Below are positions 1,230 through 46,000 of a stretch of DNA of 64,000 bases, piece by piece. The notes beneath the pieces are model-generated. The model saw only the letters and a list, made by a program, of their open reading frames with translations, was not told the DNA's origin and did not search any database. The stretch lies in assembly GCA_949126835.1 (NCBI GenBank), contig OX421505.1, positions 9,563,783-9,627,782 on the forward strand. Reading direction: 5' to 3'. Positions within the stretch are counted from its first letter, which is position 1. Every line of letters starts with the position of its first letter. A program made the translations under genes and the position numbers. This stretch comes from Anisus vortex. Its lineage: Eukaryota; Mollusca; Gastropoda; Planorbidae.

Positions 1230-3499
1230 ATGAAGAAAGTTCCCAAGTCAATCTATGAAATAGGAGGCGAGGTCGATCTGTCCCACAACCAACTCGTGGA
1301 GCTGCCCTCTGCGTCTGTGAAGTCCCCGGGGCTGAGAAAGTTGGACGTGTCTCACAACAAGATCACTGAGATACCAGACAATATCAACATTGTATACACA
1401 CTCGTATGGCTGGACCTGTCCTATAACTGTCTAGAGGTAATTCTATAACTGTCTAGAGGTAATTCTATAACTGTCTAGAGGTAATTCTATAACTGTCTAG
1501 AGGTAATTTTATAACTGTCCAGAGGTAATTCTATAACTGTCTATTGGTAATTTTATAACTGTCTAGAGGTAATTCTATAATTGTCTAGAGGTAATTCTAT
1601 AACTGTCTAGAGGTAATTCTATAACTGTCTTAAAGGTAATTGTATAACTGTCTAGTAGTAATTTTATACTTGTGTTAATTTTATAACTGTCTAGAGGTAA
1701 TCTTATAATTGTATAGAGGTACTTTAATAACAGTCTAGAGGTAATTCTATAACTATCTAGAGGTAATTGTATAACTGTCTATAGGTAATTCTATAACTGT
1801 CTAGAGGTAATTGTTTAACTGTCTAGAGGTAATTCTATAACTGTCTAGAGGTAATTGTATAACTGTCTAGAGGTAATTCTATAACTGTCTAGAGGTAATT
1901 GTATAACTGTCTAGAGGTAATTGTATAACTGTCTAGAGGTAATTCTATAACTGTCTAGACGTAATTCTATAACTGTCTAGAGGTAATTCTATAACTGTCT
2001 AGAGGTAATTCTATAACTGTCTAGAGGTAATTCTATAACTGTATAGAGGTAATTGTATAAGTGCCTAGAGGTCATTGTATAACTGTCTAGAGGTAATTGT
2101 ATAACTGTCTAGAGGTCATTGTATAACTGTCTAGAGGTAATTCTATAACTGTCTATTGGTAATTTTATAACTGTCTAGAGGTAATTCTATAATTGTCTAG
2201 AGGTAATTGTATAACTGTCTAGTGGTAATTTTATACTTGTGTTAATTTTATAACTGTCTAGAGGTAATCTTATAATTGTATAGAGGTACTTTAATAACAG
2301 TCTAGAGGTAATTCTATAACTGTCTAGAGGTAATTCTATAACTGTCTAGAGGTAATTCTATAACTGTCTAGAGGTAATTGTATAACTGTCTAGAGGTAAT
2401 TGTATAACTGTCTAGAGGTAATTGTATAACTGTCTAGAGGTAATTCTATAACTGTCTAGAGGTAATTCTATAACTGTCTAGAGGTAATTCTATAACTGTC
2501 TAGAGGTAATTCTATAACTGTCTAGAGGTAATTCTATAACTGTCTAGAGGTAATTTTATAACTGTCTAGAGGTAATTCTATAAATGTATAGAGGTAATTG
2601 TATAAGTACCTAGAGGTCATTGTATAACTGTCTAGAGGTAATTGTATAACTGTCTAGAGGTCATTGTATAACTGTCTAGAGGTAATTGTATAACTGCCTA
2701 GAGGTCATTGTATAACTGTCTAGAGGTAATTTTATAACTGTCTAGATGTAATTTATACTTGTGGTAATCTAATAACTGTCTAGAGGTAATCTTATAACTT
2801 CTAGAGGTACTTTAATAACAGTCTAGAGGTAATTTTATAACTGGCTAAACGTAATCTTATAACTGTCCTGAGGTAATTTTATAACTAGCTAAAGGTAATT
2901 TTAAAACTGTCTAGAGGTAATCTTATAACTGTCTAGAGGTGACAGTGACTCTATAACTGTCTAAGAGTAATTTTATAACTGTCTAGAGGTGTCTTTATGT
3001 TTGATATTTCCATTTTGTTTCAGGCGGTACCCCAAGAGCTTTCCCAGTTGAAATACTTACATTATTTGGACATCAGTCACAATCAATTGGTCTCACTTCC
3101 TGAAGTATTTGGCCCTCAGGTATCTGTAACAAAGTCCAACATTTCAATTACTTGTTTTTATTTCAGATCATATTTTAAACCTAGTGAGACGCAGTTCACC
3201 AGAGCATTAGGCAGAAACGTTTTATCTTCTTATCTTATACAATAAGGAAGCTCTTTCTATAAAGTAGATTCTTGCTTCCTATGCACATTCGTGGTTAGAG
3301 TCTAGTCCTGCATTTCTATTTGCAAAAGAAAAAAAATAAGCAAACGAGACACCGAAAAGTGGAATGTAAAATAGATATATAGATAGACAGATAGATAGGT
3401 GAGTAGATAAATAGTTAGATAGGTATGTTGATTGGATGATAGGTAGAGAAGTAGCCAGGTGGGTAGGTATATAATGTATATTGTTTTACAGCTTTGTGC

Positions 3500-3531
<32 letters not shown>

Positions 3532-3574
3532 CTGGATAGATAGATAGATAGATAGTTAGATAGATAGATAGCTG

Positions 3575-3615
<41 letters not shown>

Positions 3616-3670
3616 CGGGATAGATAGATAGATAGATAGATAGTTAGATAGATAGATTGATAGATAGCTG

Positions 3671-3712
<42 letters not shown>

Positions 3713-6700
3713 GCGGTCAAAAGATGGAGAGTATTTTTAAATAGAAAGAAGATAGATAAATAATAATGTTATTTATAGGCCCATAACGCTGCCAATAAAC
3801 ATAATGTAAAGCTCAGAGCACATTTAACATTGAGCAACAAATAATCAAGAACATGGATATAATTCTCGAGGCTGAATAGGATATAAATAGATAGAGTTCA
3901 ATACATGAAGAGCTAGATAAAATAAACAGATTGTTACATGGAAATATAAATAGTTAGACATACACAATGATAAACCTCTAGAAATATATCTACATTTGTC
4001 TTTCTGATTGTAGACTTTCTCTGTTGCTGTGTTGAAAGCTTCCAACAACAAGTTGACTTCGCTGCCGACAGACACCGGCTGGATGGAAGTCTTGGAGGAA
4101 CTCTACGTAGACAACAATGAGATTACGGAATTACCAAAAGAGATTCATAAACTTTATTATTTGAAGGTACGCACTCAGGAATATAAAACTTTTGGCTTCG
4201 AGTACTGTCTCTTGAATCAATTGGCCTATTTTATTGTAATAATTTTGTGGTTAGTGAAACGAGAAAATAAATTACTTTGTTGAAATATTACAACATATAA
4301 TTTGATCGTTTTCTAATAATGCAAAACTGGCGTGGGTCCTATAGAAACCCCAATTTTGAAAATTCGTCCCACTAAGGCCTCACAATCCTCTAGTATGCCG
4401 TGGTCACAGAAACTGGTGTACGTTGCTTAACCAGCCCTTTGGATCAATTTTGTCCGACGGGATACTTTACTTAAAAAAAAAATCAAGAACACCCCCCCCC
4501 CCCATTCCTCTTGTTGCAAGCGTTTATAAATTCTCCTTTTTCGTTACACCACCTATTATCTTGGCTTTTCTTTCTTCAGAAACTGGACCTATCTGGCAAC
4601 AAACTGACCAACATCGACGTCCTGGTGTCCGTGACGTCACTGGAGGAGCTCATCTTCGCCAACAACCAGGTGGAAGAGCTGCCCGAGTCAATCGACAAAC
4701 TCAAAAATTTGACCCGCCTTGACTTTACCGGAAACCGTGTCTACAACATCCCAAAGTCTATCGGCAGGTTTGTCTGTCGATACACATTCACGATTCACGA
4801 TTATCATCATTGATTGACCTTGACCTTGAGTTCCCTTTTTTTCGTCTTTTAGCCTAATACGCCAAAAATATGCTTAAATTAGTTTCACAAAATATGCAAA
4901 TGAATAGAAAACTTTATAATGTGAAGATGGCAGCTCAGTTAGACTAGCGTATACATTTCATATATTGTTATTTTGTCCAATAGAATCGGCTCTTTGAAAG
5001 ACATTTTGGGCGCCAACAACTCGATCACAGAAGTGGACGACTCCATGGGACGTCATCAACTACTTAAAACTTTGGACCTTGGATATAACAGGTATTGTGA
5101 TTTAGACGTTGCTGTTTTTTAGAAGTTTTACAGCATTCTAATTGTTTATAATTACGATAATATTATAATAGACCTACTTAAAAAATGATATAATTTCCTT
5201 ATAGTCTACAAGCTATAATTGTTTAGAATTTAGAAGCTCTGAAGTTAAATAATATTATACCTGTTTAGCTCCAAGTTGTGTAAACTCATAGACTTACTTA
5301 TCCAGTATGGATATCTATCTTACAGTCACGGTCATTGTCCATATAAGAGAATTCCAGTTGCTGGGCATGTCTATAGACATCTCTAATGTTTCCAAGGGTA
5401 ATTGGTTTACAATAGTAAATCTTTAGCATTGTTATAAAAAACAACCTCTATAACATCAGAACGGCAACTTTGTGTTTCCAAATTTTCACACCTTGGACTT
5501 TAGGGCGCCAATTATTAAACTGTCTTGTTTTTTTATGCCCCCAGAATCAGCACACTGCCTGAGGACCTGGTCCGCTGGAGAACTCTCGAGGTCCTGCGCG
5601 TCAGCAACAACGAGATCTCATTTCTTCCCCCGTCGGTGGAGAAGATGGAATGTCTGTACGAGATGGACCTCAGCAACAACAGGTTCACTGAGTGCTATTT
5701 CCCTAAACCTATAGAGGTGAAGAATTAAGTCAGTAAACTATGACACTTGCACCACAATCTTTACTCAACTTAAACATTAATAGTTATCAACATTGGAATT
5801 TAGTTGTCAAGAAATTATTCTAGTAATAGATATAAAGTCTTTAATGTTTGATCTCAGTAAAACTGAGATTTACGCTAACATATTATTTTAATTTATTTTT
5901 TTTCAATTCAATTCAAAGTACACATTTATAATCCAGTAAAATTACTTTTAAGAGGAAGAAAATCATAATAATCATACAAACTGGGTAGTTATTCTAATGT
6001 TAAAAATGTACATGTACATTCTTGAGTCATAAAATATTTATATAATTTTGTATACATATTTTGTATTTATATATCTTGTGTAATTTGATCATTGTAGAGA
6101 TATATAAATTGTAAGCCATTAATTTTTTTAAAGGAAACAAAAAAGAAATATGATTGAATATTAATGTAAAGAAAACGGTTAATTATTTCCCTTCATAATT
6201 AAATTATCAAAATTTGATGCTAGTGATACCAAACGAGTTAATTGTTTTAATATTACTAGTGTACTTCGGAAAATGCTCATCTATCTTAATTTGCCTTAAA
6301 TTAGGGAAACAGTTTATTGTTTCGAGCGGCAGCGCGTTGTACTGGCGATCCGAAGGTCCTGGGTTCGAATCCTGGTGGATTTTTTCCCCAGGACTTAAAG
6401 GTGTCCCTGAGTCTACTCAGCTACTCAGCCTACCTGACATTAGTTGGGGTAAAGTAAAGGCGGCTTGGCATTGTACTGGCCACACATCCCCTTTATGCCG
6501 TGGCCGCAGAAACTGGTGAACGCTGCTTCACCAGCCCTATGATCAGTTTGGTAAAAGCTAAAAGTGGTGCCTGTTTCCTAAAATTTCGCTCCCCCTAGCG
6601 TCAAAACCTGGCTTCGCCACTGCTACAATATAAGCAATTTCTATTTGATATAACTGATTCAGTAATCCATACAATTAAATCACAGACACACAACAAATAC

Positions 6701-7175: not shown

Positions 7176-7268
<93 letters not shown>

Positions 7269-10200
7269 TTATTTATCTATCTATCTATATCCTTCTCTCT
7301 CCCTCTCTTTCTCTCCTCTCTCTCTCTCTCTATCTCTCTCTCTTTCTCTATCTCTTTCTATCTCTCTATCTCTTTCTCCGTGTTGCCAGCGTTCGAAACC
7401 AGATGCACTGTTTGTTCGTAACCCGAATTGTTTGTCACCGGAAGCATTCGTTACCAGCGGTTCCATTCAACCGCTGTATAATATGTAATAGTTTAAATGT
7501 ATCGACAATGTGTTTCTGTTGCAATAAAAATGATGGCTGGTAATTTTTTTTATCATCGTGTAGATATTGAATTTGTCCAACAATCCCATACCTCCGCCGG
7601 CCGTGAACCAGGAATCGCCCATCATGTCTATAGGAGAAGGGGACAGCTGCCGGCGTCTGACTGCCCTGGACATCTCCAGCCTGAAGCTGGACTCCATCCC
7701 TCCCGCCCTCTTTAACTGCCGCCTGTTGGTCACTTTGAAGATTGCAAATAACCAGGTAGGTCAAGGTTTAAAGATTGCAAATAACCAGGTAGGTCAAGTT
7801 TTTTTTTTAATTTACTCAAATCGATCATCAGTAACAGTTTTAGACCATTGAAACAGAGGATTAACCAGCTGGTTTCGGGAAGCGCATATATTTTGTGGCC
7901 AGTATGATTTCTCAACGCATTCAATAAGATGTTAGAAAGAACAAACAATTTAGTTAGATATGTTAAACTTCTATTTCTCGTTCAATTACTTAATAAATGT
8001 TAGTCAGAATACTATATCAACCCAACATAAAGCAGATAATATTTGCCCATTGGTTGAATACTTGAAACAGTGGAACCAAAGAATTGAATTGAATTGTTGA
8101 ATTTCCGGCCCATCAACTTCGAAGGTTATATAGGGCCTTTTTGATAACGTTGTTGTCATTTTTTCTCTTGTATCCATTTTATTGTTCTTATATCTTTAAA
8201 TTCCGTTGTACAGTTGTATGTCTTTAATATAGTTTATTATATATTTTGGTTTAATTTTGCTGAAAAGTTCATGAAGAGTTCTACAGTAATAGAATGTACG
8301 TCCAATTTCACCAAATGTATTGCATTCCAACAAAATGTGAGGCACTGTTAAGTTGACATTACAGAGAGCACACATTGGGGCCATTTCTCGTTTTAAGAGA
8401 AAAGAATGTGTTAGTTGTGTATGTCCTGTATGTAGTCTGCAGAGAATAACTGCGTCCTTTCGAACAAGTTGGCCCGTATCATGCCAGGTTTTTGAGTTTT
8501 CCAAATACTGCAGTTTACTATAATAAGATGGGCCGCGTGTTATTTCTGCTATTTGATGACTACAATTACTTCTTTTCTGAATTCTCGATTCCCTTTTGCA
8601 CTGTACACTTTGTTTTATTCAATCGCTATGATTTTCTCAATGAAAAATTAAATTAAAATTAAAATAGAAAGTTGTATACAGCGGAAACATTTAGGTAAAC
8701 GTAGGAGCGTAGAAGTCATTTAAGACAGCCTTATTGGATGCGCACGGAAAAGGGCATATAAGCTCTAAAAATAGAGCAAGCGGTCCATCTTACTATAGTC
8801 TTTGGTGGAACACATTCGAGAATTATTCTGACAACTTTATGCTTCAAAATATTTCAATTATAAGGGCTGTAAAAAAAGTCAATATTGTTCAAACAGACAG
8901 TTTAACTGAAAGTAATTTTTTCCTATCATTTCTGACAGATAAAGGTGTTACCTGAGCAAGTGGGTAAACTGAAAAACTTGGAGTATCTGGACGCACGAAA
9001 TAATGAAATCACTGAGATACCAATGCAGATAGATCAACTGCATCAGCTGTTCTTCTTGGACCTGGCCCACAATGCAATAGTGGAGTTCCCCATGAATTTA
9101 GCCAAAGTATGTCCTGATTTTTGTACAACTTCATTTCATTTATTGTTATCATTTGATACTTTTCACATTTTAAAACTAAGAACAATGCTCACTGCTATGC
9201 AGGGGAAATGACTCATGTAAATCAATTGTAATATTAAGACAAGCAAGAGTTGTACAAAGTGGATAGAACTAGAGTTGTGTCTTGAGTGGGACGTAGAGCG
9301 CGGGGGTCTCGCTTGGTTGGACGGAGGTGGTCACGTGGCCAGAGACGCACGCGGTTGGAGTTAGTCTCCTGCAGAATCTTGTAACGTAAGGACGTATAAT
9401 TATTATTGGGATGGACTCAGAAGTAATTATCATATTTCTTGGACTTGTAATATTATTTCATTGATGTGAAATGTGAATTGCGATTTATGTGAATTAAATT
9501 TAATATGCTGCAGAGGAGTGTTCTTTTCATTTAATTATAAATTGAAAGTGTTGTTTAATTCATCTGTCGATGTTAGACAGTAAAAGCAAAGGTAAATACT
9601 ACTTTATTAAAATATAACATACGATCCGAAGAGACTGGAATTATTGTATAATGGGCAAGACAAAACGCCCCATTAACACTCACATAATGTATTAAATTGT
9701 TTAGATTCAGTACACACAACTTACTTACTACCTGCTACCACTCTCGGGATAAAGGCCGCCAACATGGGCTCTCCGGCGATCCCGGTCCTGGGCCAGTCTT
9801 TCCAACTGTCCCCAAGAGTGACCTGTTCTCTTGATGTTATCATCCAGGTCTCGGTGCCAGCTGCTGTTACAGGGTCGACCTTCTTTTCCTCTTCCTGATA
9901 GGAACTATGAGGAGGTGTTAGAAGCTGTTTTTATTTAGTGTGTACAATGAGGGTGTAAAATGATGTAAGAGAAAAAATTGTAAATAGATAGTTTCAATCT
10001 TTAACAAATATTTGAGAACAGTTTCACCAAATAGTTTGTTATGTTTGGTATACTTTCGTGAATCAAGAGTTTCAAATATCAAATAATTTTTTTTTAGTTC
10101 ATAATAAACGTGGGTCTATTTGTAGCTTATACATGGCTGACATTTTGTTTTATATAAAACATAAGAAACACAGTTTCAATTAGAGTTTATAACAGTTCGT

Positions 10201-12685
10201 GTAATTTTTTTTCTGTGTAGGGAGAGTTGCGGTTGACATAAAGAAATATGGCGTATTGCCTCACATCGAACTCTAACGATACTTGTCTTTTTGTCTCCTG
10301 ACAGCTCCACCGAATCAAGCATCTGGATTTGTCCTGCAACGCCGTGGAGAAGGTCCCTGACCTCCATAACCTCGACCACCTGGTCTACCTTGACCTCAGC
10401 AACAACAGGCTCATGGATCTGCCCGAGGAAAACTTGGACGTCCTGGCCAGTCTGCTGACCCTCAACCTGTCCAACAACCAGATCAGCGTTTTCCCGCCAG
10501 ACTTGGCCTTCCTTTACAGGTAAGTAGGTTGTTGGTGTTTGGCGTTATGTGTTGGTGTGTCTTTATGTGTGTCTTTATGTGTGTCTGTATGTGTGTCTGT
10601 ATATGTGTCTTTATGTGTGTCTGTATGTGTGTCTGTATGTGTGTCTGTATGTGTGTCTTTATCTGTGTCTTTATCTGTGTCTGTATGTGTGTCTGTATAT
10701 GTGTCTGTATATGTGTCTTTATGTGTGTCTGTATGTGTGTCTTTATGTGTGTCTGTATGTGTGTCTTTATGTGTGTCTGTATATGTGTCTTTATGTGTGT
10801 CTGTATATGTGTCTTTATGTGTGTCTGTATATGTTTTCTTTATGTGTCTGTGTTGTTTGTGTTCTTGTATGTCTCTTTGTGTGTATTGTGTGTATTTGTG
10901 TGTATTTCTTACTGTGTGTGTCTGTGTGTGTTCTTATGTTTATTTGTGAGTGTGTTTTCTTGATTGTGTCTGTGCGCGTCTTTGTGTGTCTGTGAGTGTA
11001 CAAACTAGTTCTGTCTTATACATGTTTAGTGGAAGATCGCCAACCACAAAAAGTAATTTACTCAAATTCTAATGTCATTTCTAATTGGCTGAGAGAAATG
11101 GAGCGTGTCTAACTAATGACATCTTTCGTATGGGAAGAGAGAAAAATAACCATTGTTTATATTATTGGCTACCAAGGTAAGAGAATGTCAGAATTCACTG
11201 CTTCTATACGTGAGGTCATGGCAATTTTTACTGTACATCAATTGACATCTTGTCAGCATTTTCAGTTCCCGAACTATATAAAACTGGACTTTCAAAGACA
11301 AGACATACTTAAAGACGTACCGGCATTTTTTCATCTTTATGAAACAAGACATTATTCTCTTCATTAGGCCAAAGGTCATATAATTTGTTGTATGTTCTTC
11401 CCCCCCCCCCCCAACTGACCATAGGTTGAAAAATTTAAACATATCAGGCAATGACCTGAAGGAGCTGCCCCCGGAGATTAACGAACTGGTCAGCCTGGAG
11501 AAACTGGACCTTCATGACAACTTGCTCGAGGATGTGCCTGCGACTATCGGCAAGATGAAAACATTGACCTACCTGGACATTAGCAATAACAAGATCATGA
11601 ACATCCCTTCAGCCATCAATGCCATGGCCAGTAGATGTGAGGTACGTATGGTTTCTGCTTGATATATTGTTGATATCAGTTTAACTCTATATAGGCCCTA
11701 CTTCAGCTAAAGGGCCTGAATTCAGTTGTTGTTTTTTGTGGGTGTTTTTTTTTTTGTGTACAAATTCTAATACAAAGCTGCCTTCATTTTAATTTCATTA
11801 TATTTTTTTTATTGTTTACTATTTATACCTCTATCGTTTTCTAATAATATAGTGGTTTCCTTTAGCCGATATTCAACTGTATGAGTTTAAATATCATTTT
11901 TCACCAACGGGCTTTCACTGAATGTACAAGATAACTAGCGTATATTCCCAATTAACAAGAGTAACACCATTAGTCAAATCATTAAACCTAGAAACACTAG
12001 AAGACAGAAGGGCAAAGAGTAAAGTAGTAATAATACATAAGGCATTAAACTCTAAGCTAGAAATACAACACAATAACAATCTGTTGCAAATCTCAGATAA
12101 ACATAAAGATAGAAACACTTTCCTTGTCCCTTATGCGAGAACAAATGCATATAAGTACTCTTTCTTCCCGAGTGGCATTCGGGCATGGAATGGGTTGCCT
12201 GAACAAACCAGGAAAACCAGTAACTTAACATCATTTAAAACATTAATAAAAATGCAAGACTAGACTCGGACCACGGATGAGCGTAGGACGCTCTTTATAG
12301 AAGGAGCGTCTGTAATGTATAAGATAAGATAAGAAGATATTCATCTATATAAATTGTAGGCTAACTACTGCAACATGTAAAGTCTAGTTCAATATTTCTC
12401 TGGGCTGCCCACTCTAGTCTTTTATTTCTCCAAACTGGCTTTGTTCACAGAACTTATCACGCAGAGCTGAGAAAATTATTTTTTTTACGAGTTACGAACT
12501 TGATCAACATTCAGGATTTACCAATTCTGGCCTGTGAGCCAAAGAGGATGTCATTCTACTGCAGATCATTATACTAAAACATTTCTTTTGTAACTTTTTT
12601 TTGTTTTGTTTTGTTGGTCTAGGTGAAACTAGAAGAGCAATCAGCTGACAAGGTGAGAGAAATGGAGATTGAGCCAGATAATTGA
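1230..12685 (+). CDS. Leucine-rich-repeat protein (11 exons; 5' end may lie outside window)
   Basis: Exons: 1230-1436, 3024-3119, 4014-4166, 4580-4767, 4984-5091, 5545-5716, 7564-7755, 8939-9106, 10305-10519, 11425-11641, 12623-12685. Every junction has GT/AG and keeps one frame, giving 592 codons and a TGA at 12683. Nearly the whole protein is 22-24-residue LRRs of the LxxLxLxxNxLxxLP type found in SHOC2/Ras-group and other intracellular LRR proteins. A longer spacer follows the NNPIPPP motif around residues 313-335. The tail after the last LRR is short and acidic. No signal peptide or membrane segment is visible, so a cytosolic scaffold or adaptor role is inferred; no orthologue is named. 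The ATG at 1230 directly follows an AG and falls in mid-repeat, so it may be an internal Met of a longer protein. The least certain junction is 5716/7564, where 5689 is an alternative donor. Intron phases are 0 or 2. Confidence 0.85.
1421..2992 (+). repeat. 22-bp minisatellite made of exon end plus splice donor; fills LRR intron 1
   Basis: About 70 head-to-tail copies of a 22-bp unit, core CTATAACTGTCTAGAGGTAA. The first copy overlaps the last coding bases of exon 1 (codons YNCLE) and the true donor TAGAG|GTAATT at 1436/1437. The array runs to about 30 bp before the exon 2 acceptor, so the intron is almost wholly repeat. A variant block with TTTTATACTTGTGTTAATT recurs near 1661 and 2228, and in diverged form near 2751, showing higher-order duplication with a period of roughly 520-570 bp. 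Confidence 0.95.
3491..3712 (+). repeat. GATA microsatellite with GCTGGATA interruptions
   Basis: Long TAGA tetranucleotide run in intron 2 of the LRR gene, broken by periodic GCTGGATAGATA and GCGGGATAGATA segments. Adjacent DNA from about 3370 holds further imperfect GATA-like repeats. Confidence 0.95.
4381..4476 (+). mobile_element. SINE-A 3' fragment
   Basis: Matches the 3' half of the SINE-A family: TAGTATGCCGTGG, CAGAAACTGGTG, GGATCAATTTTGTCC and GGGATACTTTACTT. The tRNA-like head is missing. It sits about 100 bp before exon 4 of the LRR gene. Confidence 0.75.
6319..6556 (+). mobile_element. SINE-A copy (tRNA-derived)
   Basis: Contains a head with a clear RNA polymerase III B-box-like GGGTTCGAATCCTGG near 6360. 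The family body follows: GTGTCCCTGAGTCTACTCAG, GACATTAGTTGGGGTAAAGT, GGCCACACAT, CAGAAACTGGTGAACGCTGC and ATGATCAGTTTGG. It lies in intron 6 of the LRR gene. Confidence 0.85.
6732..7425 (-). mobile_element. Inverted-terminal-repeat element (MITE-like), copy 1
   Basis: The left edge carries CTACTTCGGGTTACGAA and the right edge TTCGTAACCCGAA, an inverted pair. The interior resembles, in opposite orientation, the element at 55244-55974: GTACAAACGAAGGTCACGC here against GTACAAACAAAGACCTCGC there. No long ORF apart from microsatellite. Exact ends and target duplication are unclear. Confidence 0.55.
7151..7380 (+). repeat. CTAT/CT microsatellite
   Basis: A (CTAT)n run of about 100 bp at 7175-7290 flanked by CT-rich CTCTCT/TTTCTC repeats. 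Open frames across it translate to IYLS or SLSLS repeats only and are artefacts. Confidence 0.95.
7734..7800 (+). repeat. 33-bp tandem duplication spanning the LRR exon 7 donor
   Basis: The segment AAGATTGCAAATAACCAGGT plus 13 bp is repeated twice, so there are two donors with identical CAG|GTAGGT context, at 7755/7756 and 7788/7789. The spacing of 33 bp keeps frame: use of the second donor would add 11 residues, duplicating the LKIANNQ motif. Confidence 0.9.
8150..8510 (-). pseudogene. LINE C-terminal fragment (RNase H-distal / Cys-His type)
   Basis: On the minus strand an open stretch of about 100 residues has a motif order like the end of LINE proteins: [15 protein letters not shown], then [17 protein letters not shown], a C-x2-C...H...C cluster. 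No catalytic domain is included. It lies in intron 7 of the LRR gene. Confidence 0.65.
9725..9905 (-). pseudogene. LINE reverse-transcriptase C-terminal fragment
   Basis: The minus strand encodes the characteristic LINE tail order: GR..., [38 protein letters not shown]. It sits in intron 8 of the LRR gene, unrelated in sequence to the LINE-C copies nearby. Only the last ~60 codons are present. Confidence 0.7.
10536..10992 (+). repeat. TGTGTCTNTATG microsatellite just inside LRR intron 9
   Basis: A compound repeat of TGTGTCTGTA and TGTGTCTTTA units starts about 20-30 bp after the donor CAG|GTAAGT at 10519/10520. It runs about 440 bp and then degenerates into TG-rich DNA. It yields long open frames in all three forward frames that are not genes. 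Confidence 0.95.
11928..12335 (+). mobile_element. LINE-C 5'-truncated copy with ORF end and 3' tail
   Basis: Encodes about 100 residues of a LINE C-terminal domain: [20 protein letters not shown], later [20 protein letters not shown], then AWNGLPEQ and a stop near 12261. The family 3' tail follows with AGGAGCGTCTGTAATGTATA and AGATAAG repeats. It lies in intron 10 of the LRR gene and is the best template for recognising the other LINE-C copies. Confidence 0.8.
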
Positions 12686-12787
12686 TTCTGAGTTGGCACT
12701 TAGCCTGAACTCTGCCAGTGTTACGAAGTTGGCAGACAAAAGTATCAGAGTGAGGGGAAGTTTTTCTGGATTTTTTAAATGTATATG

Positions 12788-13253: not shown

Positions 13254-13789
13254 TTGTATAAATAAACAACATTCATTTGTGATTGTTTTAAGATATGCTT
13301 GACAATATTTCTTCCTGAAAAGAAATGATTTAAAATAATGTTCCATTTTATATATAATTTCAATGCAGGTTTGCTTATAATTTTTTGTCTGGCATAGAAT
13401 TCTATACACTTAAATCATAGGCCTACTTCTTACATTTTAATACAAATCTTATGTACATAACTAACATAACTCACCAGGAAATTAAGATTTTGATTTAAGA
13501 TCATCATGTATGTTTTAATAATGTTATATTATCTTATATGTTACAGATGCTAATAATATAGTATTATAAATGTTTATTGTAAAAAAACATAATTTTCAAT
13601 GACCTTTTTTTAAAAAAAATGTTTGGTTTCACATCATGGCTTTATAAAACTGTCCAATTTTTGTGTAGATTTATTAAAAATGTAAATTCATTGTTAAAGA
13701 TTTGATTATGATGAAATTTTCTAAGGATTTGCATAAATAATAATAAAACAATAGACTTGGGGGAGGGGAGGCAACCAAAGTGAGAAAAA

Positions 13790-14026
13790 CAAACAAGGGA
13801 GAGAAATGAAGAGAAACAAACAAGGGGGAGAAATGAAGAGAAACAGACAAGGGAGAGAAATGATGAGAAACAAACAAGGGAGAGAAATTAAGAGAAACAG
13901 ACAAGGGAGAGAAATGAAGAGAAACAAACAAGGGAGAGAAATTAAGAGAAACAAACAAGGGAGAGAAATGAAGAGAAACTAACAAGGGAGAGAAATGATG
14001 AGAAACAAACAAGGGAGAGAAATATC
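13790..14026. repeat. 27-bp purine-rich minisatellite
   Basis: About nine copies of a 27-bp unit, core GGGAGAGAAATGAAGAGAAA then CAAACAA, with alternating ATGAAG/ATTAAG and AAACAAA/AAACAGA variants. Almost pure purine on the + strand. The minus-strand open frame through it is repeat translation (FSPLFVSLH-type), not a gene. Confidence 0.95.
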
Positions 14027-24900: not shown

Positions 24901-27698
24901 AAACAGTATGTAAGGCGAATCTAACATTAAGGAATGTCTTAGAGTTACAGAATTGGGTACATTAGTGAAAACTAAAACACATCGTAAAGCATTTGGGGAT
25001 GGAATGGGTTACCAGAACTAGAAAGAAAAAAAAATCATCTTAAGCATGCATGTCAAAGTTAAGAGTACTCAGAGGACCATATAGATCAGATTTCTGTTTT
25101 TATGAGGGCTTCAGAGAACTATGTGAATGGGAATGCAAATGATAATTCAACAGTAATTCAATAGTAAGCTACTGACCAAATACATAAAAGGCTGCAGGCC
25201 AGCCCCCTGCAAAGTCACTGTCACAAAGTAGCCCTGAAACAGGTAATGATATGACAGTGCCAAGCTGAGCACCTGAAAAAAATAACAACAACAACAATAA
25301 AGAATTACTATAACAATAATCAATACATTTTTCTGGCATTAAAAAAAAACTACATCTTTTTACAAACTTGAAGAAAAAAATATTAAAGATAGTAATTGAA
25401 ATGCAAAGAAACTAAAAAATAAAAATGTAAGAATGAAAAAAGGTAAGTTGTCTGATAGATGTGACAAAACTGACCTGCATAAGTAAACGCTGCCAATTTA
25501 CTCCGTTCCCAAACTGGGGCCCAGCTCCCCCACATGGCATGCATAGCTGGGAAGGTAACTCCCTGATTAGTTAAATGAGTAAACAAAAAAATAGAAACAA
25601 ACTGTCAGTGAGCAGAATACAAATGAACAAAACAAAGTCAAAACATCATTGATTCATATGATCTTTGACATAAGTTTGTATACATAGTTCATTCCGGGAG
25701 AAATTCATGCTCATTGTAAAAATGTATGCTATAACTTACAGGCCACATAAAAAATTGTCCAAATAAAAGTAAACATAGACAGAACTTTACTATAAAAGAC
25801 TGTATGTATAACTATGTCTACTGTATGCCTCCTTATGCCTGCCTGTGTCTTTTCTAGGATTCTAAAAGTTAGGGAGCACAATTTATTATAAAGAAAAGAC
25901 ACTGAATCCTTTTCTTGCATTATATTTACTTACAATAGGGTATTGTATGATAACATTTCATACTTCAAGTATTAGTTTCAAAGGAAAATAATGTTGGCAC
26001 TGGTGTAGCCACATATTCGGAAGTGTGAATTTTCTAAGAGCATTGCTGTACATGTAATTATATTTCATTTTATATTTATAAGATAGTTTACCTCTCCCAG
26101 CCCTTCTAGAACCCTAACAGTTATCAACAGGTACATACTGTATTTATAAGAAAGTTTACCTCTCACAGCTCTTCTAGAACCCTAACAGTTATCAACAGGT
26201 ACGGACTGTATTTATAAGAAAGTTTACCTCTCACAGCCCTTCTAGAACCCTAACAGTAACTGTTATCAACAGGTACATACTGTATTTATAAGAAAGTTTA
26301 CCTCTCACAGCTCTTCTAGAACCCTAACAGTTATCAACAGGTACGGACTGTATTTATAAGAAAGTTTACCTCTCCAAGCCCTTCTAGAACCCTGACAGTT
26401 ATCAACAGGTACATACTGTATTTATAAGAAAGTTTACCTCTCCCAGCCCTTCTAGAACCCTAACAGTTATCAACAGGTACATACTGTATTTATAAGAAAG
26501 TTTACCTCTCCCAGCCCTTCTAGAACCCTGACAGTTATCAACAGGTACATACTGTATTTATAAGATAGTTTACCTCTCCAAGCCCTTCTAGAACCCTAAC
26601 AGTTATCAACAGGTACATACTGTATTTATAAGATAGTTTACCTCTCCAAGCCCTTCTAGAACCCTGACAGTTATCAACAGGTACATACTGTATTTATAAG
26701 ATAGTTTACCTCTCCAAGCCCTACTAGAACCCTGACAGTTATCAACAGGTACATACTGTATTTATAAGAAAGTTTACCTCTCCCAGCCCTTCTAGAACCC
26801 TAACAGTTATCAACAGGTACATACTGTATTTATAAGAAAGTTTACCTCTCCCAGCCCTTCTAGAACCCTGACAGCTATCAACAGGTATACGCTGTATCTA
26901 GCAGCCAGCGGGGTCACCAGCGTCAGGACGGATGTACACAGGACGCCGTACCCAAACAGGGCCTTGCCCCCGATCCTGGATGCCAGCCAGCCGCCGGGCA
27001 CCTGGGTGACGATGTATCCGTAGAAAAATGCCCCCAGGATGTAGCCCTGTGTCGTCTCATCCCAGTTGAACTCTCCCACCTGTGAAAAATTTACAGCAAT
27101 TCAATTCATCATAGCATAAAACATTGCTCGTTGTGTTTTTTAATCCTCTGAAGCATGTTTAGAAGTTATAATGGGATACACTCACATATATATATATATA
27201 CATGGATTGGCCTGTGGATCACATTTTTGGAAGAGTAGCACCAAATAGATTTTCCATTGTTAAAAATGCACCCTAAATTAACCTATAAAAGCTAATAAGC
27301 TTTTTTGAGTCACTGATCTATATAAAAAAAATGAAACTAAGCCTACAGAGCAAAATAAAAAACTACTTTCATTAAAACACACAGAAAATATTGCTTTACT
27401 ATAAAAACTCTAGGGTTTATGTTATATGTATTTGAATAATGATTTTCCTAAAAATCACAATGTGTAATAAGTTATGAAATTCTCTAAATCAACTCATACA
27501 TGTACTTTATTGCGATCTTATAGATTATCATATCACATTTTATTATGTTTAATTATTCCTTAATATTTCATTAAAAAAATTATATATAAATATATATAAA
27601 TATATTCAATGGCTTAGAAATAAGGAGCATAGGAAGCAAGCTATATATAGGTATATTAGTTTTATATAAACATTTCTGTTCCATTTTTGTATATAGCC

Positions 27699-27732: not shown

Positions 27733-29845
27733 GTTATATAATATATGGATCAGTAAATTTATTAGGGAAGTTCTTTGTGGCATACCAAGGAGCAATAAGG
27801 AACAAACAGACTAAACAGGAAGACTAAATTGCGGATAGAGTTGGGCTGTATACTAGGAAGTAGATTTATATGTATTTATCTTGTTCACCTGTAGTATAAT
27901 TGTACTTATGGTGCTTATATTAAATAGGTCAGTCAGGTCTTGCCCAAATAGAATAACGGGATCAGAGACAAGAGAGGAAGAAAATCAGGATTCTGGCAGA
28001 TACCATTGACCAAAAAGTCTAAAAAATACACGACTTTCATCACACCATTTGGTCGATGCTCGTTTAATCAGTTACCATTTGGCATCAGTTCTGCCAGTGA
28101 AGTTTTCCAAAGAACCATCTCTGCCATTCTAGGGGACATGAAAGGCATAATCTGTCGCATGGGTAACATTCTGATTCATGCACCAGACACAGAGACTCAT
28201 GACAAACGAGGCAGAATTGTAATGCAAAAATTACAAGAAGCTGGACTTACACTCAATGAGAAATGTGAATTCTTCAAAGATTCTGTACGATTTCTAGGAC
28301 ACATCATTGATCGAAAAAGAATTCACATTGATCCAGAAAAAGGTAACGGCTATAAACAAATTTCCACAGCCAACCAACGTGACTGAACTTCAAAGACTGT
28401 TGGGAATGCTAAATCAACTGGCTGAGTTCACACCGAATCTTGCCAGTGTTACAGAACCACTGAGGGATTACACAAGGGTCCAAGCAATGCTTTGTAATCA
28501 AATGGTCCAGCTGTCCCAGAAGGAAATAAAAGACTGACCCTTTAACTGAATAGAAGCAACAATTTGGACCTAATTACGCCACCCTACTAATAGAGGAACA
28601 TGCAATGACAGTTCTGTGACTATAACTACTACCTGCCTTCAATGATGTATCTAGTTTAATTCCAGGATTATGGGCATTGTTAAATAAAAAGGTAAGAATA
28701 ATTGAAAAGGTGTTGGGTCTAGGTCCATAAAGCTACTGGGACGGACGGTAGTTAATTAAAACAAACAGAGTAGGACTAGAATTTCACCTGCAAGTTAATT
28801 AAAACAAACGGAGTAGGACTAGAATTTCACCTGAAAGTTAATTAAAACAAACAGAGTAGGACTAGAATTTCACCTGAAAGTTAATTAAAACAAACGGAGT
28901 AGGACTAGAATCTCACCTGAAAGTTAATTAAAACAAACAGAGTAGGACTAGAATTTCACCTGCAAGTTAATTAAAACAAACGGAGTAGGACTAGAATCTC
29001 ACCTGAAAGTTAATTAAAACAAACAGAGTAGGACTAGAATTTCACCTGCAAGTTAATTAAAACAAACGGAGTAGGACTAGAATCTCACCTTGTCAGGGGA
29101 AGTGGAGTTTCCACTGTTTGGCGAGGGACACTCTGAGCTTTTGCTTGCATTATTTCTTGAGGATGACGAGTTGACCATGGCTACCAAAGCAACACTAAGA
29201 TCCACCCTGAGGCAATATACATTGACGAAGCCGAGGAACGCCATTATAGCCAGAACGTGACGTGCAGCCATGCACTGGGAGCCTGTTAAAAAAAAAAAGC
29301 AGAAGATCAAATTACCGGTAATTTAACATCATTTTAAAGGAATGGAGGGACATTAGACCTTATGAAAGAAGAAAAAATGGTGGCAATGTTGAAAAAAAAA
29401 CAACACAAATGATGTCAGTAGTTTACTCTAAAACTTGACTCTAAAATTTAACTTTAAAACTATATCTAAAACTACACTCTAAAACTACGCTCTAAAAATT
29501 ACACTATAAAAATACACTATAAAACTAGCACCTAAAACTACAGTCTAAAACTTCCATCTAAAACTACCATCTAAAACTACAGTCTAAAACTTCCATCTAA
29601 AACTACCATCTAAAACTACACTCTAAAACTACCATCTAAAACTAATATCTTAAAACTACCATCTAAAACTACAGAGTAAAACTACAGTCTAAGACTTGAC
29701 CTTCTTCATTTCTCTTCTTCCTTTCCAGATCTGAGTAAGAAGGCAGAAGCGCTGTAGACTCTTCACTGTCATTGTAGGAGCTGTGACTCCCAGCACGCAG
29801 GGAACTGTTGATCACCAGGCTGCTGGATCTTTCGGATCTAGCCAT
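18902..29845 (-). CDS. SLC17A5-like: Sialin-like SLC17 anion transporter (11 coding exons, 547 aa)
   Basis: Coding exons in order: 29845-29701, 29282-29089, 27079-26846, 25562-25475, 25272-25177, 24847-24726, 24153-24004, 22849-22717, 22027-21872, 20961-20876, 19141-18902; all joins are GT/AG and in frame. The SLC17 family moves organic anions across lysosomal or synaptic-vesicle membranes. Visible: a cytosolic N-terminus with acidic dileucine ESTALLP (about residues 31-37), TM1 with the [11 protein letters not shown] signature, a luminal loop with NxS/T sites, a [13 protein letters not shown] motif, [19 protein letters not shown] with the conserved His, ISTSEKEYI, and TM segments to about residue 490. 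The C-tail holds a PPxY (PPEY) near the end, a possible WW-domain ligand. Human sialin is about 495 aa; the extra length is in both tails and the first loop. A CTTTCAG acceptor at 29854-29860 implies an upstream noncoding exon. Substrate cannot be read from sequence. Confidence 0.93.
19395..19680 (+). pseudogene. LINE C-terminal fragment with internal stop
   Basis: The + strand reads [20 protein letters not shown] and then [15 protein letters not shown], continuing to [14 protein letters not shown] and a terminal stop. The TAG replaces a Trp expected in the usual RWEDNI motif. Lies in the sialin-like gene's last intron. Confidence 0.7.
20355..20578 (-). mobile_element. SINE-A copy
   Basis: Reverse copy in the last sialin intron: ATCACCAGTTTCTGTGGCC, GCCTTTACTTTACCCCAACT, CATCAGAGCTGGGTAGACTC, GGGATTCGAACCCAGGACCT (B-box complement) and CGGCCACCATGCC. 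Confidence 0.85.
20684..20763 (+). repeat. 20-bp tandem repeat, four copies
   Basis: Four near-perfect copies of GCTGAATGGGTTAAAAACAT, about 110 bp from sialin exon 10. The array does not reach the donor of that exon. Confidence 0.95.
21328..21640 (+). mobile_element. LINE-C degenerate copy
   Basis: Recognisable by AAAGAGCTCCAAGGTTCTTT, ACAGCAATAGTTAAATCAC, AAACACTAGAGGAGAGAAGG and GCATGGAATGGGTTGTCTGA, in the order of the intact LINE-C coding fragments. Frames are broken. Located in the intron between sialin exons 9 and 10. Confidence 0.75.
22384..22632 (+). mobile_element. SINE-A copy
   Basis: Head with CCTGAGTTCAAATCCCAGTG, then GGCTAGGATTTTTCCAGG, CCTGGGTCTACCCAGCTCTG, TTTGTTGGGGTAAAG, GTGGCCACACAATCACC-like block and GGATCAATTTGGTCCGACTG tail. 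About 85 bp from sialin exon 8. Confidence 0.85.
23225..23400 (-). mobile_element. SINE-B copy (tRNA-like head, LINE-C-like tail)
   Basis: Reverse orientation: TTTACAGACGTTCCTTCTAG and ATAGAAGATTATTATGTCCA (tail), CTAGGCCCAAAACTTG, then GGGCTAGAACCCGGAC (B-box complement) and TTGACAGTCCAGTGAACTAA (head). More diverged than the copies at 47056 and 53995. Confidence 0.75.
23623..23887 (+). mobile_element. SINE-A copy
   Basis: Head GGGCCAAGGTGGTGCATTTG, B-box-like GAGTTCGAATCCTGGTGAAG, GGCTAGGTTTTG, GTGTCCCTGAGTCTACC, TGGCCACAGAAACTGGTGAA and terminal GGGACTACTTTACTTT. Near full length, in a sialin intron. Confidence 0.85.
24196..24425 (+). mobile_element. LINE-C fragment
   Basis: Starts at AAAGTAGTAATAATACACAA and runs through AAACACTTTTGTTATCCCAT, GCAAGAACAAATACATATAA and TTCTTCCCAAGTGGCAT to CACTACTCAAAATGCAAG. 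It follows sialin exon 7 by about 40 bp on the upstream side of the gene. Confidence 0.75.
26076..26893 (-). repeat. 68-bp minisatellite of sialin exon 3 end plus splice donor
   Basis: Twelve copies of a 68-bp unit including the real exon end. On the coding strand each unit reads roughly ACCTGTTGATAACTGTTAGG, TTCTAGAAGGGCTGGGAGAG|GTAAAC and TTTCTTATAAATACAG. It thus copies the codons for [14 protein letters not shown] and the donor at 26846/26845. Eleven intronic copies follow the true donor in tandem. One copy (near 26250) has a 6-bp insertion. Confidence 0.95.
27700..27740. repeat. TA dinucleotide tract
   Basis: TATATA tract at about 27702-27742 within sialin intron 2, in a generally AT-rich stretch from 27540. 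Confidence 0.9.
28006..28537 (+). pseudogene. Ty3/gypsy-type reverse transcriptase fragment
   Basis: Residues [20 protein letters not shown] and [11 protein letters not shown] match the palm region of Ty3/gypsy-type RTs, followed by [19 protein letters not shown]. The active-site region that normally carries YxDD reads [10 protein letters not shown] here, so both catalytic aspartates are gone. A frameshift near 28340 moves the continuation, [20 protein letters not shown], to another frame. No LTRs, gag, RNase H or integrase found. It lies in sialin intron 2, antisense to the gene. Confidence 0.8.
28751..29090 (-). repeat. 43-bp minisatellite abutting sialin exon 2 donor
   Basis: About eight copies of a 43-bp unit. 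On the gene strand the unit reads CTAGTCCTACTCCGTTTG, TTTTAATTAACTTTCAG|GTGA, GATT. The real donor is ACAAG|GTGAGATTC at 29089/29088 and the array starts with it. In each intronic copy an acceptor-like CAG precedes the donor-like GTGAGA/GTGAAA directly. Confidence 0.93.
29420..29690. repeat. ~11-bp CTAAAACTAC repeat in sialin intron 1
   Basis: Imperfect tandem run of ATCTAAAACTAC-type units, about 25 copies. It ends about 10 bp short of the exon 1 donor at 29701/29700. It occupies most of the short intron between coding exons 1 and 2. Confidence 0.9.
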
Positions 29846-40600: not shown

Positions 40601-43019
40601 ATGAAAATAAAACTGTTGTAACTACAAGTATATGATAAAGTCTGATAATGCATTTTTAAGTGTAATATTTTATGCACAAGATATTCTAAATATTCAACCC
40701 TGTGAGTGTTTTATAATAATGTACTTTAAAATTAAATATTTTTAATCAATTGAATTACTCCAGATTAATGTGATTATTAATACAAGTGCTTTGTCTAGTG
40801 ACCTAAGTCAGCTATGTCCTAAGTAGTGAGCCTAGTAAGCAATAAGATGCCTCTGCTAGTCTTAGAACTAAGTTATTGACATTGAGTTTTAAAAATATAA
40901 AATATTTTTGTCACAGTCGATGAATATTTTGTATAGAAATATTTGGTAAAAGAACTAGCGTAAGTTTACAAGGAAATGGATGTGTGTGCGCCAAAAGGGG
41001 CAAGTAACAGTGCCTAATTGTATTGTCACATGATTTTGGTCACATGTTTACAAAAGCCATTTTAGACTAATTTAGAAAAGGGCAAAACAGACTTTAGTCT
41101 TATATAAACATGTCAATATATATATATATAAATAGAATATCAGAGGCAGACTTGAATTATTAGAATATTGAATAAATGTTATGTTACTCAAGAACAGAAA
41201 TTTGTTAATGTTGTCAAAACATGTATGTGTATAAATAGAATGAACTTACTGTAGTATCGCTAATGTAGCCCCAAATAGGCGATGTTATACCATACAGACC
41301 AGGCGCTATGACAAATATCAGGCCAATTAGAGACTTGGATAAATCAAACTGAAAAATAAATGGGAACATTTATTAAATTCTATACAAATAAAAAAGTTAT
41401 ACAATTTATTATTATTTTTTTTTTTTCAATAAATAGCTGTTATATTTACATACCCCCGTTCCTAAAAAAAAAAATTTTAACATGTAAAATATGTATCATA
41501 GGTCAAGATAGGGTTTTTATTTTTTAAGTAAGGGAAGTTGATGCTCAAGACTCTGAAAAAATGTAAATACAAAGGAATAGAGGCTAAAAGACTCTTGAAA
41601 TAATGAAACGATTGCAAAAGCAGCATAGCAGTATATTGGGTTAACATTATGACAATTTAGGGTTCAAATCCCACTAAAAAGCTCCAGGATTGTTCCTGAT
41701 AAGAGAGTTTTCCCAGCTCTGATTGGTACCTGACATTAGTTGGGCAATTAAAATTGGTTAGGTACAAACAATTGGGAAAGACAAGGCTGAAAAATGAAAT
41801 AATGTTGTTTTTATTTCCTCTTAAAATAACCGAAACAGCAAAACTGAAAGGTAATGTTTTGACCAGCGCTTACCTGTTCTAAATGCTTAGCAAAAGTTGG
41901 ATCAAGGAAAACAAGAGCTATACTGCTGGCCAATATGCCCAGTGAGGAGAACCACACCATGGGACTTTTCAACAAGCTCAGAATACTTCCCTTTCTTTCA
42001 TGTTTTACATCTGGGGAAAAAGAAACACCAAAAATTGATATCGCCGTCTGATTACGATAAACTACAAGAAAGAAATGCACCACAGTCAAACCTCTGTTGT
42101 TGGTAAAGAATCTGTGAAATCCGAAACCCATGACGCATGTGCTGTGATATTATTTTCATATGAATCAATGTAAATCCAATTTGTTTTAAACAGTCCAAAT
42201 TACATACAAAAAAACAACAACAAGAAAGCATTTTAAACAGAATAAATATAGTGTTCATTACTAAATACATTAAGGTGTTTTTATAAACAAATGGATACAA
42301 TAGTAAGTATGAAGAATAAATGATTACTGCTAGGGAGCGGACTGTAGCAAAAAAGAAGAGTCACAAGTCTGTTGGGTTGCAGTTGGTTCTACAATGTATG
42401 AATATTCATGTTTTCTATGGCTTGATAATGTCACTTTGTAGAAAGAGGCTTATATAATTTTACAAAATTAACTTTTTTCCATTGCTAAAAAAAATAATTT
42501 TTTGTTAAATTGGCTTTTAAGAGTATGAACAATTTTGTCGGAACTTAAAAAAAACATAACTATAATGTAAAATAACTTGTCTTTAAGTTTTAGTATTATA
42601 GTTGAAACAAATTTGTTAAAAATAATTCAATAAAGTTTCTTTCACCTTCAGGTTGAGGTAAAAAGAAAAACATCAATGCTCCAGTGGCTAAAATTGAAGC
42701 CCCAATCACAAAGAATGGCAAGCCAAAACCACCAACCTGTAAGAAAAACAAAGGAAACATTTAATTGTTTTTGTTTATATTTTAAGCTATTTTTTTAATG
42801 TGTTCAACTCAGTAAAAATAAAAATGATGACCTCATAAAGGAAACCTCCAAGTGCAGGGCCAGCCATAAGACCAATACCATTGGCTGTTTCTAACAGACC
42901 CTATGGGAGTGGATGGATTAAAAAAAATTATTAATTGGCATGTTTATGAAATAAAAAAAAATTTGGAAATGTTATATAAATATAAAAGCAATTTTTTTTA
43001 TCCTAGTATCTATGGCAAC

Positions 43020-43066
<47 letters not shown>

Positions 43067-46000
43067 AATATTGAAAGTTTACAATTATAAAAACTTCAAA
43101 AACTAAAAAAACAAGCTTAACCAATCTAAATGTAACATTTTTTGTTACATATTTAAACATTAAACGTTTAAAAATTAACTTAAAATAAGTAAAATTAAAA
43201 AAAATATAACATTTGAGAATCTAATCTTAAAAATGTTACTTTTATTTTAAAACTTTAAACTGTTTTTATTTTAAAACTTTAACTTACAAAAACAGTGGCT
43301 ACATGTTTTGGAAATTCATTAGATATGATTGCAAATGATGATGTGATAAAAGCAGACAGGCCTAGGGCTTCAATGCAGCGGCAAGCAAAACAGATGATAA
43401 TGAAGGGCGTCCCTGGAGGGCTCCTGTGAAGAGTGCTGTGTGAATGAAAAAGACATAGACCATAGATGAGTCAGTCATTGGAACTTAAAGGTAATATATT
43501 CATGGCAGATGAGTCCTAAAACCATTGAAACTTGTAGAACAATTCAAAAATTGACAAAATGGTCTAAAGCTTTAAAAAAATCATACATTAATCTTTTCTA
43601 TGAACTTAATTATTAGAATTTTACATTTAAATCTAATAGCTTCATTTTAGAACAATTGGCTTTTTTTTTTTTTTGTATTTTTTAGATGTGATACATAAAT
43701 AATTTTTAACTATTGCTTTAAAAAGACAATACCATTGAAAGAACTGCACACCAGACCTTGATGCCAATTTTTTAAAGATAGACAGATTAAAACATCAGAA
43801 AAAGAACACAAAGATAATTTTCATGAGATTGGCCAGTTTACTGAGGGTTCTGGGTTCAATCCCCTAATATGCCACAGAAACTTATGAACACTGCTTCACT
43901 GAACCTATGGATCAATTTGGTTTGACGGGTACTTTACTTCACCTGCAATTTCTGGAGGGTATAGAACTTCTTTTGAAAGCCAAAATCAATACAGATGCTC
44001 AACAATGTTCTGAAAAGGGACTAGAATTTAAATAAGCTGAGAAAAAAAAATGTAAATAAAGAAAACAATGAAGAAGACAGGCAGCATACCCAAATAAAAC
44101 TGCACATGATCCGCCAACTAATATTCCAGAAACAAACAAAAACTTTGCCCCAATTCTTGTCAACTATAGAGTACAAAAACAGGAAAACCTTTTCGATGCA
44201 TGTTAAAAATATAACAAAAAAAGAAAAAATGCTAATAAATAGAGTAAAGTGTAAACAAAATATTTATCAATAGAACTACATTTTTAAACATAACAATAAG
44301 AAAACAAAAAACTATCACTAAAAGCAAAAGCAAAGTATGTTAAATATGACAGATTTAAGAACGAAACAAAATATTTTACAAAGTTGCCATAAACTGGTGA
44401 AGAGATGAGAATCATAAATTGGAATACGCTGAAGATAAGTCCAGTCACTGTGGTGGAGACACCTTTCTTTTCAGCCTATCAAATGGGATAGAAAAAAAAA
44501 CATTTTATTTTGAACAAAGTATACATATAGTTGACACTAAATCAAAGCTTTGACATTAAATCAACCCCTTTAGAGTTGCATGTAGCAAACATGAATTAAA
44601 CCAGCAACATGCTTGAATGCAGCCCAAAATAATGTATATATATACCCATGCCAGTTCATGCATTTCTGAAGAATTCCTTGGTTCATTTTGGAAGGACTGA
44701 TCATGAATTGTTACGTTTTTAACTACTGCTGCAAACAAATGTATTTTGTATATGATTGGAAAAAATAATTGGTTGATAATAATTGTATGTGTTAAGAGGT
44801 GGCTTTAATTAATATTGCATTCAATTATATTATTACATTACTTTAAATGAAGGGAGTTTCATTAGAATTCTCACGCATTCTACTTGATTAACTGCTCTGA
44901 CACTTGGCATTGTGAATTTTCAAGTTTTAGCTAGAAATGAGAGTTGGCTATTTCTCACAAAGTTTTAAAATAAGTATATTATCATTCTTGAATATTCTGA
45001 GTTTATTCATTGTGGGGGAAAAAAAAAAGTGCTGTTTAGTTTAAGAAACATAAGTAAATAGGAGATATAACACAAAATATATTGCTTTACATGAAACAAC
45101 TTGTAGGCCTATTACTTAATTTTTTTTGTTACATAACATTAGTTATTTTAAACAGCATTTAAAAATTAACCATTTACGTTTATTAGTTATTTAAGATTAT
45201 GGGGCATGGTGACCGTGCAGAAGCGCGTTTGACTAGTGTACCGAAGGTCCCAGATTCGAATCCTGGTACAGGCTAGGATTTTTTCCCGGGTCTGGAGGGT
45301 GTCCCTGACCTTAGTTGGGGTAAAGTAAAGGCCACACAATCACCAAGTATGCCGTGGCCACAGAAATTGGTGAGTGCTGCTTCACTGGCCCTATGGATCA
45401 ATTTGGTCCCACGGGATACTTTACTTTTTTACTTTAGTTTTTTAACATTGCAATAAGCATGTAAAATACTTAAACTATTTTACATTTTAATGAAAGTTTG
45501 TCCACACACACAACAAAAAAAGATTTGGTGTCAAATGTCAAAGCAGGAAAAAATTCTCTAATGCTTTGCAAAATAATGGATCCATGTAAACAACTCACAC
45601 ACTTACTTCCTGCGGGAATAAACAACACATGCACTTACTTCCTGTGGGAATAAAGAACACATGCACTTACTTCCTGCGGGAATAAACAACACACGCACTT
45701 ACTTCCTGGGGGAATAAAGAACACATGCACTTACTTCCTGCGGGAATAAACAACACACGCACTTACTTCCTGCGGGAAAAAGGGAGCTAGTAGAGAGAAT
45801 CCGCAGCCAGTGAAAAAATTAGACAGGGCCAACAAAACTAGGACCAGCTTGTTTCTTTTCGTTAACTTGCTAAGTGCAAACTTTTCATCTGCATCATTGT
45901 GAGTTTTAGTAATGCCTGCCAATGGGGAGTCAACATGGTCAACGGAAGCAGCACCTGTAACGGAGTCAACACAACCAAACATTGAGCTGAGATCAGACTT

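Follow-up and report, generated by a model that had tools for sequence, protein, structure and literature searches.

In the planorbid snail Anisus vortex, minisatellites were found to cover the 5' splice site (donor) in 5 of the 35 introns contained in a stretch of 64,000 nucleotides (nt), hereafter the window (C14:9563783-9627782, from a genome of 863 Mb in 159 contigs). The arrays, identified by Tandem Repeats Finder (TRF), have units of 22, 33, 68, 43 and 32 bp, and fall within three neighbouring genes: a leucine-rich repeat (LRR) gene, a sialin-like gene and an SLC18B1-like gene. They are likely to have arisen as duplications of the ordinary kind across exon edges, in a genome rich in minisatellites, and to be tolerated since the exon-side copy still splices. 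Donors are probably struck at about the rate expected from array density, and the window would represent an unusual local cluster, due either to luck or to some regional effect. The five arrays, together with the exon on which the first of them begins, are listed below; positions refer to the window, and a slash marks the exon-intron border.

1230..1436, forward strand: part of an LRR coding exon, ending ...LSYNCLE; its final 16 nt belong to the first copy of the 22-bp unit
1421..2990, forward strand: 22-bp minisatellite of about 72 copies (TRF), unit CTATAACTGTCTAGAG/GTAATT, spanning donor 1437
7734..7802, forward strand: 33-bp duplication of 2.1 copies, spanning donor 7756, with 22 exonic and 11 intronic nt
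26073..26887, reverse strand: 68-bp minisatellite of 12 copies, spanning sialin-like donor 26845, with at least 42 exonic nt, ...VRVLEGLGE/
28750..29090, reverse strand: 43-bp minisatellite of 8 copies, abutting sialin-like donor 29088, with 2 exonic nt
45587..45778, reverse strand: 32-bp minisatellite of 6 copies, spanning SLC18B1-like donor 45766, with 12-15 exonic nt, ...APFFPQE/

All five donors, 1437(+), 7756(+), 26845(-), 29088(-) and 45766(-), lie inside their arrays, and the reading frames are continuous. The exonic reach of each repeat was established by comparing each position with the one lying a unit further on: it amounts, per unit, to 16 nt for the 22-bp array, 22 nt for the 33-bp one, 42 nt (weakly up to about 60) for the 68-bp one, 2 nt for the 43-bp one and 12-15 nt for the 32-bp one. 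Four of the five units are thus made of 12-42 exonic nt followed by the first intron bases, and show an origin from an exon end joined to an intron start; the 43-bp array, unlike them, merely abuts its donor. A donor-like site is present within the unit in all five arrays, as AG/GT in four and as AA/GT in the 32-bp unit. The repeats always extend on the intron side, as the initial annotation, made from sequence alone, had stated, and the intron acceptor is in all cases outside the array, at least 33 nt past its end. That annotation had also counted about 35 introns, the number given by the models, and its five arrays are real, with two corrections: the last unit measures 32 rather than about 33 bp, and the 43-bp array does not span the junction. 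An assembly artefact was rejected in view of the diverged copies, the conserved exon-side copy and the presence of several unrelated units.

The 22-bp array occupies 1,554 of the 1,587 nt of its intron. By eye, blocks of variant copies appear to be repeated along it (1421-2990), a higher-order pattern which suggests that several units were duplicated together. Each 43-bp unit starts with GTGARA and ends with TTAACTTKCAG, and the array may be seen as mini-introns arranged in tandem, or as units of a recursive-splicing-like kind; at C1:4740809 a 44-bp repeat of similar type, ...ATATTTTCAG/GTAAGT, was noted. The array is adjoined, in intron 2 of the sialin-like gene (28000-28500), by a candidate reverse-transcriptase-like fragment, recognized by eye.

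The arrays start at an exon end with a genuine first donor, as indicated by the frames for all five and by the proteins of relatives for three of the five junctions. When 11 mollusc relatives per gene were aligned, their proteins were continuous, with no insertion, at positions 92 of the SLC18B1-like protein (S18 92) and 113 and 191 of the sialin-like protein (SIA 113, SIA 191); the exception is one of the 11 SLC18B1 rows, gapped after residue 92. Because the relatives' proteins run across these three junctions, the exon-proximal donor would be both ancestral and in use at the SLC18B1 and the two sialin arrays. The same continuity led us to reject, at these junctions, the possibility of false donors. 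For the two LRR array donors the support consists of the open frame and the LRR periodicity. Extension of the exon by one unit, to the next donor, would introduce a stop or a frameshift in four of the five arrays; in the 33-bp case alone, the second donor would add 11 residues, in frame and stop-free.

A simple series of events may account for this arrangement. A short tandem duplication over the exon-intron border would be generated by slippage or microhomology and, with frame and donor retained by the exon-side copy, would be nearly silent. Later copies would accumulate within the intron, expanding like any minisatellite, and selection would remove the versions altering the exon. Position and frame suggest that the extra copies pile up on the intron side because exon-side copies would change the protein; given that the exon side is coding, no special process has to be invoked for the expansion into the intron. 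The same events could take place at acceptors, where one case was found, in a block of contig C8 (B8). A duplication in which the exon-proximal donor is kept, one of the causes considered in the initial annotation, is visible in the window and recurs both in an SLC7-like gene in B8 and in a PDZ exon (L031).

Sequences outside the window were sampled by taking the 100 kb that flank it on either side, together with four 20-kb blocks placed at round coordinates of other contigs and 10 kb more; B3 and B11 did not enter the intron counts given below. Gene models were here built ab initio and picked by eye, with codon and splice profiles trained on the window, and are less reliable than the window models: at its loosest cut-off the exon finder returned 21 of 31 known internal exons exactly, and 2 of the 35 outside introns are open-ended. 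Pfam, searched with exon pieces strung together, supports the SLC7-, SLC2-, glutaminase-, sulfotransferase- and syndecan-like genes (the two SLC2-like genes entered the search as one query), and gave no support for a GPCR-like gene and for the LRR 5' intron. Donors are GT in 34 of the 35 introns; the glutaminase-like exon 13723-13800 has a guessed end.

Within these 35 introns, holding 16 intronic arrays, 1 donor-spanning array was found versus 0.95 expected (p 0.62) and 1 acceptor-spanning array versus 0.90 expected (p 0.60), giving a donor rate of 1/35, with a 95% interval of 0.1-15%. The outside sample fails to confirm the excess seen in the window, and is too small to exclude a modest one. 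The two 100-kb flanks hold 35 arrays; from their scores, judged by eye on the best 40 of 100 rows, none seemed to span a credible donor, and one starts 28 nt past the donor of the syndecan-like gene. Altogether, 264 kb hold 50 minisatellites, 33 of which have a period of 20-50. Two arrays of block B8, which was picked without knowledge of its donor-spanning array, deserve description.

B8 (C8:12000001-12020000), SLC7-like gene: array with a period near 77-79, over donor ...QIPGFG/GTAAGTTC
B8, SLC7-like gene, 1862-2300: 35-bp array of 12 copies, spanning acceptor TTCCAG/GTTCTGGTATATTTGTG, before ...GSGIFV

In the second of them the core CCAG/GTTC occurs 12 times, a number that includes the working site; this array contradicts the earlier suggestion that donors are involved exclusively. 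Other outside arrays were located close to exons. In block B5, one starts 15 nt past a donor. A further array of B8 (7935-8700) ends 27 nt before an SLC7-like acceptor (exon at 8728), and one in L013 (3572-3716, corresponding to 13572-13716 when joined) ends a few nt before the acceptor of the glutaminase-like exon near 13720.

At the level of the whole genome, tandem pairs with a period of 20-50 were counted for the donor core AGGTAAGT and for three control 8-mers. The donor core gave 2,703 pairs, the reversed 8-mer TGAATGGA 4,680, the dinucleotide-matched AAGTAGGT 8,328 and the reverse of AAGTAGGT 3,851, so that no excess over the controls was observed genome-wide. These totals are dominated by few giant arrays (at C1:20.27 Mb for TGAATGGA, and a satellite at C1:62-118 kb for AAGTAGGT), and clusters were therefore also counted by hand among the matches listed (first 100 places, all on contig C1). 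Of the first eight donor-core clusters, one corresponds to a true exon end, the PDZ exon L031 (...GDRIIAVNGDTISGKSYRDVISAIHQ/GTAAG, 22-23 exonic nt per unit), a call which rests on reading and on a Pfam PDZ match with an E value of 2.8e-10. No coding sequence was seen in the 40-160 nt read upstream of the other seven, where untranslated exons are possible, and no Pfam family above cut-off was obtained for four open frames derived from them. An upstream codon score did not separate the eight clusters, being 2.3 for the true PDZ exon and up to 2.8 elsewhere. A nearly identical 23-bp donor-core repeat, CTATAATCAATGTCTAGGTAAGT, was noted at C1:4461220, C1:4536656 and C1:9464408, and is perhaps carried by a mobile element. 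An estimate of the genome rate, based on 23 clusters in 72 Mb among the matches listed, suggests some tens of donor-spanning arrays of this donor type genome-wide. The crude rate for AG/GTAAGT donors is about 0.3-0.5% (upper 1.4-2.3%), on the assumption of 150,000-250,000 donors, 3/70 of which are of this type; it matches the 0.4-0.6% predicted by array density alone.

Some observations weigh against the idea that ordinary duplication at array-density rates is sufficient, first of all the strong donor-array excess within the window. In the main counts, TRF arrays with a period of at least 10 and a score of at least 100 were considered, leaving out microsatellites (period below 10). When 14 arrays were placed randomly, 0.44 donor-spanning arrays were expected versus the 5 seen (p 1.5e-4); for the nine intronic arrays the expectation was 0.45 (p 5e-5, the lowest value that 20,000 shuffles can give). 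With seven different TRF cut-offs, p ranged from 0.0002 to 0.0022, with expected values up to about 1.1; acceptor-spanning arrays were 0, versus 0.45-1.08 expected (0.45-0.47 in the main counts). The claim of the initial annotation that five such arrays are far beyond chance is therefore correct inside the window that prompted it (p 5e-5 to 0.0022), and not in the 35 outside introns, which are at chance. The window was chosen for the pattern, and its p-values thus carry selection. A point-wise count, in which 30-mers recurring within 400 nt with at least 22/30 matches were scored, showed no excess (4/35 donors and 1/35 acceptors, versus 11% of 2,077 random intron points, a figure to which the same long arrays contribute most), because introns are filled by these very arrays.

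The remaining observations of this kind come from outside the window. Arrays within 35 nt of donors were 3 versus 1.40 expected (p 0.16), and those within 35 nt of acceptors 3 versus 1.32 (p 0.14). Strong donor-like sites were present in 7 of 53 outside arrays, versus 2.6 after shuffling, with p 0.010 at one cut-off; the other four of the five cut-offs gave p 0.08-0.32. Among the matches listed in the first 20.3 Mb of C1, multi-pair clusters were 12 for the donor core and 2 for the reversed 8-mer; three of the 12 share one repeated unit and one is microsatellite-like. Among those listed in the first 1.4 Mb, AAGTAGGT gave 3 clusters and the donor core 2, the two controls therefore disagreeing in direction.

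On these data, it seems unlikely that minisatellites in planorbids arise preferentially at exon edges, and at donors in particular, with a high local rate in this region. Somewhat less probable is a mutational process seeding minisatellites at donors, by slippage, by R-loop formation or break repair at the transcribed border, or through the donor motif itself. Such a process would fit the 5/35 donors versus 0/35 acceptors in the window, the donor-spanning array in a block chosen without knowing of it, and the counts of 7 versus 2.6 donor-like cores at one cut-off and of 12 versus 2 listed clusters; it is contradicted by the outside sample at chance, by the acceptor-spanning array of B8, by donor-core pairs not exceeding the three control 8-mers and by the seven of eight donor-core arrays with no coding sequence in the 40-160 nt upstream. 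A regional hotspot, by which this part of contig C14 would be more prone to exon-edge duplication, is also doubtful, and slightly more so. Three neighbouring genes are affected, and the comparison of 5/35 window donors with 1/35 outside gives a one-sided Fisher p of 0.099; yet among the 35 arrays of the 100-kb flanks no span over a credible donor was recognized by eye, a count of five is small, and the window had been selected.

Selection in favour of spare donors or of many U1 sites, by which the copies would be kept functional, may be considered very improbable. The donor GT is intact in nearly all copies (in the 22-bp array, the G is kept in 70/72 and the T in 72/72), and the IFI6 minisatellite gives alternative donors in human transcripts, according to the part of PMC4526556 considered. 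However, several other unit columns are equally well kept: donor GT does not decay faster than they do, and the profiles reveal no clear difference from other unit positions that would mark donors as purged or specially kept. Moreover, splicing at the next donor would, in four of five arrays, bring in a stop or shift the frame, and the SLC22A1 donor duplication is associated with lower expression. The suggestion of redundant donors under selection thus finds no clear sign in the copies. Intron gain by tandem duplication, to models of which the initial annotation had referred, is scarcely credible: four of the five units carry AG/GT, and the 43-bp unit (GTGARA...TTKCAG) looks like a mini-intron, but no new intron was made, as the acceptors lie outside the arrays in all five cases, and the relatives' protein is not lengthened at the three checked junctions.

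Duplication across exon edges, tolerated by virtue of the exon-side copy, thus being the preferred reading, the other features of the window may be considered. The gene models, four in number with 35 introns in all, were drawn by eye and then verified with a script, and all four are continuous open frames.

LRR gene, forward strand: 10 introns in view; Pfam LRR_8/LRR_4
Sialin-like MFS gene, reverse strand: 10 introns; Pfam MFS_1
SLC18B1-like MFS gene, reverse strand: 13 introns; Pfam MFS_1
Short histone-fold gene, forward strand: 2 introns; Pfam CBFD_NFYB_HMF
10555..10974, forward strand: 12/24-bp GT-rich array, starting 35 nt inside donor 10520; near, not spanning
29425..29696, reverse strand: 13-bp array of 21 copies, starting 4 nt inside donor 29700; near, not spanning
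46884..46936, reverse strand: weak 24-bp repeat of 2.2 copies (79% match) in SLC18B1 coding exon 1, ending exon-side at donor 46883

The sialin-like protein is 81% identical to its Biomphalaria glabrata counterpart and 80% to that of Bulinus truncatus; the SLC18B1-like protein is 77% identical to that of Bulinus. Orthology of the LRR gene to LRRC40 is unproven, thousands of LRR proteins having been returned by the protein search. Intron 1 of the histone-fold gene contains, at 49400-53300, a long open stretch resembling by eye a non-LTR (long terminal repeat) retrotransposon, listed as a candidate. The two arrays starting just inside donors had been reported in the initial annotation, which placed one at 10536 and the other about 10 bp from a donor at 29701, and were found to start at 10555 and 29696; its statement that exon interiors are spared holds for the most part, the weak 24-bp repeat in SLC18B1 exon 1 being the exception.

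The arrays offer natural tests of splice-site choice, with one exon end followed by about 70 near-identical donors and, in B8, an exon start preceded by eleven further acceptor copies. At the checkable junctions, the protein is conserved in relatives despite the donor copies of the window. If exon edges were indeed favoured as birthplaces, the spliceosome would have to choose the exon-proximal site among near-identical copies; were a preference for exon edges to emerge from a full scan, it would suggest that splice junctions and the origin of repeats are connected through mutation. In view of the outside sample, one striking window should not be taken as a genome-wide rule. A literature search, mostly limited to non-subscription papers, led to no recognised snail or genome-wide precedent.

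In man, a minisatellite at the donor of the IFI6 gene was reportedly described by Turri, Cuin and Porter in 1995. In the part of PMC4526556 considered, the minisatellite repeats of human IFI6 (6-16/G1P3) supply several splice donors at the exon end. The likeness to the snail arrays lies in a donor-containing minisatellite at an exon end, in a many-copy state; the difference is that downstream repeats are reported to be used in human RNA, whereas in the snail four of five would break the frame. At SLC22A1, a donor duplication (rs35854239) is a common human allele, and splicing from either donor was obtained in minigenes; in liver the wrong product is nearly absent, which the authors ascribe to mRNA decay (PMC8137991, in part). 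It shares with the snail arrays a tandem donor duplication in which the original donor still splices, and shows the proposed first step; it differs in consisting of two 8-bp copies from the intron start, whereas the snail arrays reach about 72 copies of 22-68 bp and contain exon sequence in four of five units. Models of intron gain, in the sections considered of a review (PMC3443670), likewise involve duplication over the exon-intron border with AG/GT signals, but there a new intron forms between the copies, while the snail copies lie within an existing intron. Short tandem donors of the GYNGYN type (PMC1779574) are also closely spaced competing donors, but are few nt apart and have no minisatellite units. 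A repeat in an intron of dog LHX3 (PMC3223203) was discarded as a precedent, as the part of that report considered concerns intron length and not donors. The snail arrays are real further cases of donor-containing minisatellites, a known kind.

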